DNA of 64,000 nt from Propionispora vibrioides (GCF_900110485.1 NZ_FODY01000027.1:1-64000), one strand, 5' to 3'; positions 19,927 to 22,476 are shown, counted from the stretch's first letter. Notes: generated by a model not told the origin, from the letters alone. Numbers and translations are program-made.

Positions 19927-20079
19927 ATAGTAGCCGTTATTTTTTAATATATGGGATAGAGGATGATTCAATTAACTTCAACCACCTCCAGTGCTTCTTT
20001 AAACAATGTAACACCTGACATAGTGTTATCATATTATGTTAATAGGTTACCCAGAATTTTATATGGAGGTGATTGGTTA

Positions 20080-20412
20080 ATGTATCATGATAGCGATGAT
20101 GACGATATGCTTAGTTGCTTCTCGATGAGCAGTTGCCAGTCCTGTTTCTCGATGGGGAGCTGCCATTCCTGTCATTCTTGTCATTCCTGCCACTCTTGTC
20201 ATTCTTGTCAGTCCTGCCATTCTTGCCAGTCCTGTCACTCTTGTCAGTCCTGCCATTCTTGCCAGTCCTGTCATTCCTGTCAATCCTGCCATTCTTGTCA
20301 GTCCTGTCATTCCTGTCAGTCTTGCCATTCTTGCCAGTCCTGTCATTCTTGTCACTCTTGTCATTCCTGCCATTCTTGCCACTGCTGCCGTTCTATGAAT
20401 CCGGGGAAGTGA
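20080..20412 (+). CDS. Cys/His-rich tandem-tripeptide peptide, candidate modified-peptide precursor
   Basis: A 110-residue protein starting at ATG 20080, nine bases after a perfect GGAGGTGAT; a longer frame from 19963 has no good ribosome site. It opens MYHDSDDDDMLSCFS and from residue 29 has 24 uninterrupted tripeptides (His or Gln)-Ser-Cys: five HSC, eight QSC-HSC pairs and three HSC, then HCC and a short RSMNPGK tail. About 30 of 110 residues are cysteine. It has no membrane segment or signal peptide. Convergent at 95 bp is a YcaO enzyme, the class that makes azolines or thioamides from Cys/Ser/Thr in peptides. Substrate status is inference. Alternatives are a metal-binding or spore-associated Cys-rich protein. 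Confidence 0.75.
   Translation: MYHDSDDDDMLSCFSMSSCQSCFSMGSCHSCHSCHSCHSCHSCQSCHSCQSCHSCQSCHSCQSCHSCQSCHSCQSCHSCQSCHSCQSCHSCHSCHSCHSCHCCRSMNPGK
20164..20379 (+). repeat. 24 x 9-bp in-frame coding minisatellite
   Basis: Twenty-four 9-bp units of consensus CAN-TCY-TGY run without interruption. All differences between units fall in third codon positions (CAT/CAC/CAG/CAA, TCT/TCC, TGT/TGC). The encoded Ser-Cys is invariant and only the first residue alternates His/Gln. The opposite strand is also open, but its product looks like a shadow. Confidence 0.9.
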
Positions 20413-20469
20413 TGCCAATCCGATAAGCTTTTACGTTGACAAGGTATAATGTTGCTCCTTACTAAAAAA

Positions 20470-20500
20470 CAAAAGCCAAAGCATTCAGCTTTGGCTTTTT
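20470..20500. terminator. Bidirectional terminator between Cys-repeat peptide and YcaO gene
   Basis: AAAAGCCAAAGC-attca-GCTTTGGCTTTTT lies between the two convergent genes. Confidence 0.9.
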
Positions 20501-20506
20501 GTGTAT

Positions 20507-22324
20507 TTAAATCAGCTTCTTGAGATCGTTTTGATCTATTGTGCTGGCAGCGTACCGCTCTTTGAGTATTTTGAAGACCTGCTCCATCGGTGGATAGAGA
20601 CACTGACTGGAAAATTGGCAGTTCTCGCAATTCCAGCAATTTAATTGTCCTTGGTAACTAAGGATTTCCGCTGGTGAGTTGAATTCAGCCACAACCCCCT
20701 GAATTACCTCCATTGGATAGAACACGCTTAGTGTGCTCACGGCGTCCTTTTCCGTCAGTCCTTTAATCTTGGTCGCCAGAAAATCCCGTACGCACTTATA
20801 ATAAGTTATCACTTGGCGTTGCGGATTAGCGTGTTGGGTATAATCCCAAAATTTTGTGAAACTCTCATAGGCTTTATTGGTATCGCCTTTCCAGCAGTTC
20901 AGGGCAGTGACAAACAAGTCGGCATTGCTGTAATACCACGGAAACGCTTTACTCCGTACCGGCAGATTGATTAGATCCATGACCGAAGCCCCAGGCGAAT
21001 AGTTCATGTTTTGCAAAAAGTCGATAATTGTGGCGGCACCGGTGTCGTCGAGACAGTCGATGTTTCGGACAAGTCTCTTGAAGGTGTTGAAAGCAGCATA
21101 ATTGGTAATGGGCCTTAGGTCATCAAATTCCTCGATTTCACTCAAGCCGGGAACGATTATATGATAACTCGGAAAGCCCAGGAACGAAACATCCCGTACA
21201 TATGTCTCGCAGCCCAATTGAGCCAAGCGGTCGACCATATAAGCCAGCATTTCTTTGTTTGTGGTTATCGTGATTTCTTCGAACCCGTTGAATGGATAAC
21301 TGAAGTTATGGCTGAAAAATTCCGTAGGATAAATCCCTGAGCCGGTTACGAGTATGCCCATGTAGTTTTCCGGGTCGTCCGCCGGGCTGCGGAAGGAGAA
21401 CTCCTTGACCCCCATCATCCATTTTATATCCTGTCCCTGAAGAAGTTCGGTCAATGTCCTTTCTGCGGCAATTTCAAATTTGGGATGAGCGCCAAACTTC
21501 ACAAAATAACTCTGATCATTCTTATTTACCAGGACAACCCCGACAACCGGCAGCTTTTGTCCCAGCGAGCAGTCTTTAAGGATAACTTCAAAATTGCCGC
21601 TTTTTTCAAGTGCGGTAATCATCGCCTCAATCTTGGGGAATTTCACGATATAATCCCACGGGATAGTGGGCGGTACTATTCTCTCCCTAAGAATTCTCTT
21701 GTTGGCGTAGCGTTCCATGATTTCCGATATACCCTGCACCAAAGCCTCTTCAGGCGAGTTGCCGGCGCACATGCCGTTCGACATATACATCATCGAGGCC
21801 ATTTTTACCGGGATATGGGAAATACGTTTGCTGTTAAGATTGCAATAGGGTAGAGCGATAAAATCGGCGGGTATCTGCTCATAAGACATGGTCTGCCAAT
21901 TTTTCAGAAGTTCCCGTTTGTCCAGCGAAGAGTTGGCTCTGGACAATTGGGTTTTGATCCAATCTTCGTCACTGGCAAGGAACTCATCAATACTCATCGG
22001 TTTCTCGTCAGGGGCGTAATAAAAGTCCAGGTATTCCATGATCTGGGGCTTTACATCCAAACTTAGTCTGTAGTAGCAGAGATTTTGCAAGCGTTCCATC
22101 ATCTCGCCGTAGGCGCTGGCCAGGGCGAATTCGACCGAAGTTCCTTTTCCATTGGTCAGTAGATCGGTATTGTCGATCACCACGCTCACCGAATAAAAAC
22201 CATTCACCGAATTTTTCCATGAGCTTTCTACTGTTAGAAGGCCCACCTCACCAAGAATATCTCTTATTCTGTTAATGGTTTTGATGGGCATTTCATCCTT
22301 GTACTTCATATCTGTTGAATCCAT
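20507..22324 (-). CDS. ycaO: YcaO-domain ATP-dependent enzyme, E. coli YcaO type, with C-terminal Cys cluster
   Basis: A 605-residue protein starting at ATG 22324 (MDSTDMKYKDE), six bases after GAGGTG; an earlier in-frame start has no such site. The three YcaO Mg-ATP motifs are intact: SAYGEMMER (70-78), QGISEIMER (197-205) and ERTLTELLQ (288-296). Length and motif context (TNGKG, SNGMCAGN, FGAHPKF) follow E. coli YcaO, the type linked genetically to RimO, rather than azoline-forming enzymes fused to a docking domain. There is no Pro-rich C-terminus. Instead Cys563, 566, 569 and 575 (CxxCxxC...C) could bind zinc or an FeS cluster. No E1-like partner or RimO gene is in the window. The convergent Cys-Ser repeat peptide is the obvious candidate substrate, by inference. 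Confidence 0.9.
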   Translation of the reverse strand: MDSTDMKYKDEMPIKTINRIRDILGEVGLLTVESSWKNSVNGFYSVSVVIDNTDLLTNGKGTSVEFALASAYGEMMERLQNLCYYRLSLDVKPQIMEYLDFYYAPDEKPMSIDEFLASDEDWIKTQLSRANSSLDKRELLKNWQTMSYEQIPADFIALPYCNLNSKRISHIPVKMASMMYMSNGMCAGNSPEEALVQGISEIMERYANKRILRERIVPPTIPWDYIVKFPKIEAMITALEKSGNFEVILKDCSLGQKLPVVGVVLVNKNDQSYFVKFGAHPKFEIAAERTLTELLQGQDIKWMMGVKEFSFRSPADDPENYMGILVTGSGIYPTEFFSHNFSYPFNGFEEITITTNKEMLAYMVDRLAQLGCETYVRDVSFLGFPSYHIIVPGLSEIEEFDDLRPITNYAAFNTFKRLVRNIDCLDDTGAATIIDFLQNMNYSPGASVMDLINLPVRSKAFPWYYSNADLFVTALNCWKGDTNKAYESFTKFWDYTQHANPQRQVITYYKCVRDFLATKIKGLTEKDAVSTLSVFYPMEVIQGVVAEFNSPAEILSYQGQLNCWNCENCQFSSQCLYPPMEQVFKILKERYAASTIDQNDLKKLI

Positions 22325-22476
22325 GCATTGCACCTCGCACCATAACATTTTACGCTGAAGGAAAATAATTTTTCCAGTTCCTTTTAATATATGACCATGC
22401 ATCATAGTTTGTGATTGCAAGGAACCATGGCTTTGTGACTCTTAGAAGTATAAAGAATATAAAGAGTTCCTTTAAA

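Follow-up and report, generated by a model that had tools for sequence, protein, structure and literature searches.

A YcaO gene that recurs beside a sulfur-repeat gene under sigma-K-type promoters suggests a previously undescribed chemically modified spore-surface protein

In Propionispora vibrioides, a gene for a YcaO enzyme faces a short ORF that encodes an uninterrupted array of (His/Gln)-Ser-Cys tripeptides. This arrangement raises the question of whether the repeat protein is the substrate of its neighbour and, if so, what chemistry it undergoes and where in the life of the cell. The pair lies in the 64,000-nucleotide stretch of DNA that we analysed (NZ_FODY01000027.1:1-64000; "the window"). 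An earlier note, made from the sequence alone, had described a 110-residue peptide with 24 consecutive X-Ser-Cys units, convergent with an intact YcaO gene about 95 bp away and sharing one bidirectional terminator with it, and had proposed that YcaO modifies the repeat. The layout is borne out in each of these respects:

19999-22434, no strand: two-gene cassette, the blastn extent of DNA homology with Sporomusa sp. KB1 and Propionispora sp. 2/2-37
20010-20038, + strand: sigma-K-type promoter motif of the array gene, AAC-N17-CATATTATG
20065-20073, + strand: ribosome-binding site of the array gene, GGAGGTGAT
20080-20412, + strand: array ORF, 110 aa, with an Asp-rich N-terminus (MYHDSDDDDM), then Ser/Cys/Met-rich repeats and the C-terminal end HCCRSMNPGK
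20164-20379, + strand: the 24 consecutive (His/Gln)-Ser-Cys tripeptides of the array ORF
20471-20499, both directions: bidirectional intrinsic terminator common to both genes, 12-bp stem
20507-22324, - strand: YcaO, 605 aa, intact, full-length E. coli-YcaO fold, ATP-site motif SNGMCAGNxxEEAxVQGxxExxER intact
20600-20638, - strand: Cys-x2-Cys-x2-Cys-x5-Cys motif near the YcaO C-terminus, shared by nearly the whole clade but lacking in E. coli YcaO
22385-22413, - strand: sigma-K-type promoter motif of the YcaO gene, CAC-N17-CATATATTA

The stop codons of the two convergent genes are separated by about 95 bp. The array product reads MYHDSDDDDMLSCFSMSSCQSCFSMGSC, then the 24 (H/Q)SC units, then HCCRSMNPGK. 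The units occur in nine DNA versions, and the alternation between His and Gln is itself a third-position codon change; because all differences between units fall at third codon positions, the pattern shows a repeat under selection as a protein in this reading frame. A longer in-frame start exists at 19963, and the promoter motif and ribosome-binding site support the ATG at 20080 as the probable start. The TCN-TGY pattern of the array is matched at a single place in the genome, which is this array, and the pair recurs in other genomes; judged by these sequence comparisons, the association is far beyond chance. Searches of the array proteins against Pfam and NCBIfam gave no family apart from collagen-type matches to Gly-x-Met arrays, which we rejected as compositional, and a search for structured RNA in the region found none.

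The window YcaO is the only YcaO in its genome and belongs to the superfamily (Pfam PF02624, 183 bits; cut-off 25.7). Its nucleotide-site motif is invariant or nearly so across the clade of its relatives, consistent with an active site that is intact. The earlier note had assigned it to the E. coli-YcaO type. In fold the assignment stands: an AlphaFold2 model (pLDDT 88.5) matches 4Q86 over its full length (TM 0.79/0.83 over 599 columns), PDB entries 4Q84-4Q86 being E. coli YcaO, with which the window protein shares 28% identity by alignment. At the level of the defined family it does not, since NF040716 (YcaO_for_S12 / uL16 type) scores 309.5 bits, far below its cut-off of 700. The pI of the window protein is 4.97, within a clade range of 4.75-8.41. 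We rejected TfuA as a partner, as none of the 16 carrier genomes tested contains it. All 16 have RimO, a result that neither supports nor excludes a role for the YcaO as a RimO/S12 helper.

A scan of 84,980 species, a set that overlaps in species with the 300 Negativicutes genomes considered below, yielded 33 YcaO loci. An array was called where at least seven of eight consecutive every-third positions are Met or Cys, the repeat pattern having been widened from Ser-Cys to [Met/Cys]-x-x once the first loci had been viewed; by this rule, a repeat ORF adjoins the YcaO gene in 24 of the 25 loci with a YcaO of at least 45% identity. The recurrence within 2 kb that the earlier note had put forward as a check is thus strongly positive. 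In these 24 loci (L083-L106) the array lies within 1.5 kb of YcaO, whereas the more distant flanks contain one array in 254 kb; the hosts include Sporomusa, Pelosinus, Propionispora, Lucifera, Clostridium, Alkaliphilus and others. In the sole exception, L111, YcaO is split between two frames. L108 (44% YcaO) has an imperfect Met-rich ORF at the same place, and in L112 the array is 2.9 kb from YcaO.

Among the 300 Negativicutes genomes searched, 16 contain a YcaO of at least 48% identity, each with a Cys/Met repeat ORF beside it or, in two broken assemblies, at the contig end; no repeat ORF was found in two Negativicutes genomes whose only YcaOs are distant (32-39%). Dense Met arrays are similarly present in all six of the 207 Clostridiaceae genomes that encode a YcaO at least 46% identical to that of C. 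gasigenes, and were not found in three whose YcaO is 38-41% identical to it. On a maximum-likelihood tree, all array-bearing loci fall within one 29-row YcaO clade (support 96/99). Two tandem YcaO genes with about 39% identity to the window protein (L048 and L050; G142:C65) are without arrays. The broad Cys pattern TSNTGY was discarded for Negativicutes, as its many matches in non-carriers are, by our interpretation, other frames of Ala/Pro/Val-rich or Val-rich coding.

The pairing appears to persist through rearrangement and transfer. The genes are convergent in most loci and divergent in Alkaliphilus, and in C. uliginosum and C. gasigenes the array lies upstream of YcaO on the same strand. 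Over YcaO, the window shares about 89-90% DNA identity with Sporomusa sp. KB1 and Propionispora sp. 2/2-37 (blastn). This homology takes in both promoters and stops just outside them, with unrelated flanking loci beyond; Pelosinus propionicus has the right boundary in common with the window, and its contig ends inside the array. Because DNA homology between unrelated sites stops at 19,999 and 22,434, the array and YcaO together behave, by this comparison, as a self-contained cassette. Sporomusa and Pelosinus each contain two YcaO versions (90% and 52-53%), which points to probable horizontal movement of the cassette.

No neighbour except the array ORF recurs across the YcaO loci compared, in agreement with the earlier note, which had seen no E1-like partner, oxidase, protease or exporter nearby. 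The one further gene noted is YlbF/YmcA-like, on the YcaO strand and upstream of YcaO in five Clostridia-type loci (L088, L090, L098, L099 and L103). Two loci met in the scan contain YcaO genes in other settings: L109, from a Thermotoga-labelled bin, is a different, RiPP-like cluster with a radical SAM/SPASM enzyme, YcaO, a small Cys-containing ORF and an ABC transporter, and in L110 (2538-7962) two YcaO genes flank a Nif11-leader peptide gene and a methyltransferase-like ORF, probably a conventional RiPP cluster.

Comparison of the arrays shows that the conserved unit is X-small-[Cys/Met] rather than Ser-Cys, with Met or Cys at every third residue. Cys predominates in the window's clade and Met in Clostridia, and other Negativicutes arrays are Cys/Met mixtures such as MDSCKSM. 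The residue preceding Met/Cys is Ser in 67% of cases in Negativicutes; in Clostridia it is Gly (30%), Ser (28%), Ala (15%) or Pro (14%). A Ser/Thr/Cys core, with dozens of Ser/Cys, is present in Negativicutes arrays and not in Clostridium arrays: the C. uliginosum array (170 aa) has 54 Met, no Cys, no Thr and 8 Ser, and that of C. gasigenes (215 aa) has 63 Met, 3 Cys, 1 Thr and 4 Ser. Most Negativicutes arrays have an Asp-rich N-terminus and many are Lys-rich; Lys occurs once in the window array and once or twice in several Clostridium arrays.

Sulfur-rich repeats also occur apart from this enzyme. Many Clostridiaceae that lack this YcaO have related Met-rich arrays (the pattern is matched in 31 of 201 genomes), so arrays can function without it. 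Four loci (L151, L152, L157 and L158, from G384, G385, G393 and G397) encode dense Met-rich repeat proteins of the MMPMDQMMGMNPMMHM type and have no YcaO alongside; these belong to a broader Met-repeat class in Clostridiaceae. In L154 (1123-2656), a Met-rich N-terminal repeat is fused to another domain in a YcaO-less protein; the neighbouring gene encodes a multicopper oxidase domain (Cu-oxidase_3), which hints at copper chemistry for Met arrays. A Cys/His-rich protein ending in (SCD)n (L061:1492-1767; G044:C4:407138) comes from a genome whose YcaO and own array are on a different contig.

When would the two genes be expressed? The sigma-K consensus is mACm-N16-CATA-N3-TA (PMC5749712), and the promoter from which C. 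difficile sigK itself is transcribed has AC and CATATAAT (PMC3789822). Sigma-E has its -10 in common with sigma-K but differs at -35 (PMC517825), so the AC element favours sigma-K. Of 23 array genes, 16 have the motif AC-N16/17-CATAnnnT in the 160 bp upstream (shuffled sequence predicts 0.9), compared with 8 of the 159 remaining ORFs of these loci. The motif mAC-N16/17-[C/A]ATA[T/C]AnT precedes 11 of 25 YcaO genes (0.12 expected; 0 of 159 control ORFs). Both counts are drawn from related, non-independent loci and, for YcaO, use a pattern refined after inspection. By motif, array and YcaO genes thus carry putative sigma-K-type (late mother-cell) promoters. Genome-wide, the array motif is not enriched (20 matches in two genomes versus 27 for a reversed control); six of the 20 sites are 24-75 bp before small coat- or spore-like proteins, two of which are arrays. 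SpoIVA scores above cut-off in 51 of the 300 Negativicutes genomes and in all 17 close-YcaO carriers, including the 58%-complete G142; by this marker, the close YcaO appears restricted to spore-formers within the class.

Other sites of the same kind came to light. In G044, one (L190; G044:C6:154862) lies ahead of the gene for a Cys-rich CNPxC/CxPxC-repeat protein (NPNCSPYCRPRCQPGCNP), possibly a further spore Cys-repeat protein, with no YcaO nearby in its 3-kb locus. Two others precede paralogous small Tyr/Pro-rich proteins (L171 and L183), one of which was searched and gave no Pfam or NCBIfam match. In the window's genome, a site (L184; G000:C31:44902) lies 31 bp upstream of an ORF that contains a radical-SAM-like CxxxCxxC stretch.

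The reading that best accommodates the locus as a whole, to which we give a probability of about 0.5, is that a sporulation-specific YcaO modifies a spore-coat-like sulfur-repeat protein. That the repeat is the YcaO substrate, as the earlier note suggested, gains support from the 24 of 25 adjacency; we infer that it probably is, and its product is likely to reside on the spore. Late in sporulation, the mother cell would express both genes from the sigma-K-type promoters, producing a low-complexity protein with Cys or Met at every third residue, usually after a small residue, and a dedicated stand-alone YcaO. The enzyme would bind the repeat protein, use ATP to activate (phosphorylate) backbone carbonyls and modify many repeat units. 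Sulfide would then react with activated carbonyls to give thioamides at some positions, most likely without an array side chain as nucleophile, and the sulfur-dense product would be built into an outer spore layer. The mother cell would lyse, making leader, protease and exporter unnecessary; their absence makes sense if this is a coat-type protein of the mother cell, not a secreted peptide. Expression has sequence support, and the later steps follow from enzyme family, substrate composition and context.

The chemistry is the least secure component, and we propose backbone thioamidation tentatively, at somewhat below even odds. A side-chain-independent reaction is favoured because the same YcaO clade serves Met-Gly arrays nearly free of Cys/Ser/Thr. 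E. coli YcaO thioamidates ribosomal protein uL16 at Met82 with no known TfuA, and modification persists in an M82A variant (Rice et al. 2026, PMC13063428). The same enzyme recognises a folded protein and leaves short peptides unmodified (PMC13063428). By analogy, this counts against our reading, as a disordered repeat would need to be recognised otherwise; so does the presence of a sigma-K-like motif at just about half of the YcaO genes.

Of the alternatives, the one that survives best, although we consider it unlikely, is that the array is an unmodified sulfur-rich coat or metal-binding protein, that YcaO acts elsewhere (for example, on uL16) and that the genes are co-regulated neighbours. 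Met-rich arrays lacking this YcaO in other Clostridiaceae, one of them near a multicopper oxidase, fit such a view, as do the acidic window YcaO (pI 5.0) and the fact that the target of E. coli YcaO is uL16 and not a neighbour's product (PMC13063428). However, unless the two genes are functionally linked, it is difficult to account for an adjacency that persists in three gene orders and through horizontal moves while no other neighbour is common to the loci, and several clade YcaOs are non-acidic (pI to 8.4), unlike the uL16 group.

Less probable still is the azole or azoline peptide of the earlier note, in which YcaO would cyclise Ser and Cys of each X-Ser-Cys unit to oxazol(in)e-thiazol(in)e pairs. 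Fused oxazole-thiazole formation from adjacent Ser-Cys is established for microcin B17, and adjacent Ser-Cys, the dozens of Ser/Cys in Negativicutes arrays and the intact ATP-site residues would all suit this chemistry. Yet the Clostridium partners of the same YcaO clade are Met repeats nearly free of Cys/Ser/Thr, so azoles cannot be the general product, and we rejected azole formation as family-wide chemistry; the recurrent neighbours include neither an azole dehydrogenase nor an E1-like or leader-binding partner, and TIGR03604 (SagD-family cyclodehydratase, TOMM type) scores 60.9 bits, below its cut-off of 219.25. The proposal is therefore weakened as a general one, while Ser-Cys is present in some members and an azoline product limited to the window's own clade is possible. 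Given Met-only arrays, backbone thioamidation (+16 Da), which the earlier note had also named, fits better.

YcaO enzymes make amidines of the bottromycin type, and coats are cross-linked structures, so that Lys or other coat-protein amines might attack the activated array backbone and cross-link a spore layer. Many Negativicutes arrays would supply the Lys, but with one in the window array and one or two in several Clostridium arrays, Lys cannot be a general within-array nucleophile, and we regard this route as very unlikely. A secreted peptide natural product or bacteriocin with a very short leader is hardly credible: a small precursor-like ORF, and hence a gene-encoded candidate substrate, does adjoin YcaO as in a RiPP locus, but leader, protease and export functions do not, no transporter, protease, immunity or leader-binding gene recurs, the promoter motifs are of sporulation type and the locus is almost always a single two-gene unit.

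Our literature search, which covered sources outside subscription journals, found no earlier report joining YcaO with a methionine-rich, sulfur-repeat or spore protein. A YcaO with a neighbouring substrate is already known; the substrate class, setting and two-gene make-up are new. A sporulation-specific YcaO acting on the repeat would give a large unstudied YcaO group a candidate substrate and a biological setting, and would extend YcaO biology beyond antibiotics, methanogenesis and ribosomes to spore structure. The chemistry is directly testable, as the candidate substrate is encoded next door, highly repetitive and expected to be abundant in purified spores, and the natural range from Cys-Ser to pure Met-Gly arrays offers a series for defining the needs of stand-alone E. 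coli-type YcaOs. The thioamide shift of +15.977 Da is easily taken for Met oxidation (PMC13063428); thioamides in Met-rich repeats would be misread in standard proteomics, which could explain why they were overlooked. A bolder version, possible though doubtful, has dozens of backbone positions thioamidated in the Met/Cys triplet-repeat protein, yielding a poly-thioamide, sulfur-dense coat polymer that protects endospores of many anaerobes against oxidants or metals. If real, such a polymer would provide the first example of a YcaO devoted to a structural protein of the spore, and also the first of a structural protein with repetitive thioamidation. We speculate that sulfur-dense coats of anaerobes might quench oxidants or bind metals.

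Among known systems, E. coli YcaO resembles the window enzyme in its full-length fold and ATP-site residues and in standing alone in a host without TfuA. It acts next to a Met in uL16, and the arrays are Met/Cys-rich. It differs in that here a repeat ORF adjoins, the C-terminus has a four-Cys motif and the promoters are of sporulation type; uL16-type YcaOs are also strongly acidic (pI about 4.4) with no nearby small ORF, and the window clade has neither property. Azole-forming TOMMs (microcin B17, SagD type) likewise have a short Ser/Cys-rich ORF beside YcaO, as in the Negativicutes members, but here no E1-like/ocin-ThiF partner, oxidase, protease or exporter is found and some arrays are Met-only. 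With TfuA-YcaO thioamide peptides (thioviridamide/thiovarsolin) and McrA thioamidation the locus may share a backbone thioamide; unlike them, it occurs in 16 carriers without TfuA, and its candidate substrate is structural and repetitive. For some YcaOs of methanogens, the enzyme acts on substrate sequence close to the modified position. The YcaO-less Met-repeat proteins of Clostridiaceae are also small ORFs with Met at every third residue, some starting MKNYS/MENYS, although their units are often MM-x-M-x-x rather than X-small-Met. Finally, in Bacillus, the kinase CotH is encoded beside its repetitive spore-coat substrates CotB/CotG in the late mother-cell regulon. CotH is unlike YcaO in fold and chemistry, and CotG repeats are Ser/Lys/Arg-rich and phosphorylated, but in both cases the gene for an ATP-using modifier adjoins that for a repetitive protein, known to be of the coat in Bacillus and probably so here.
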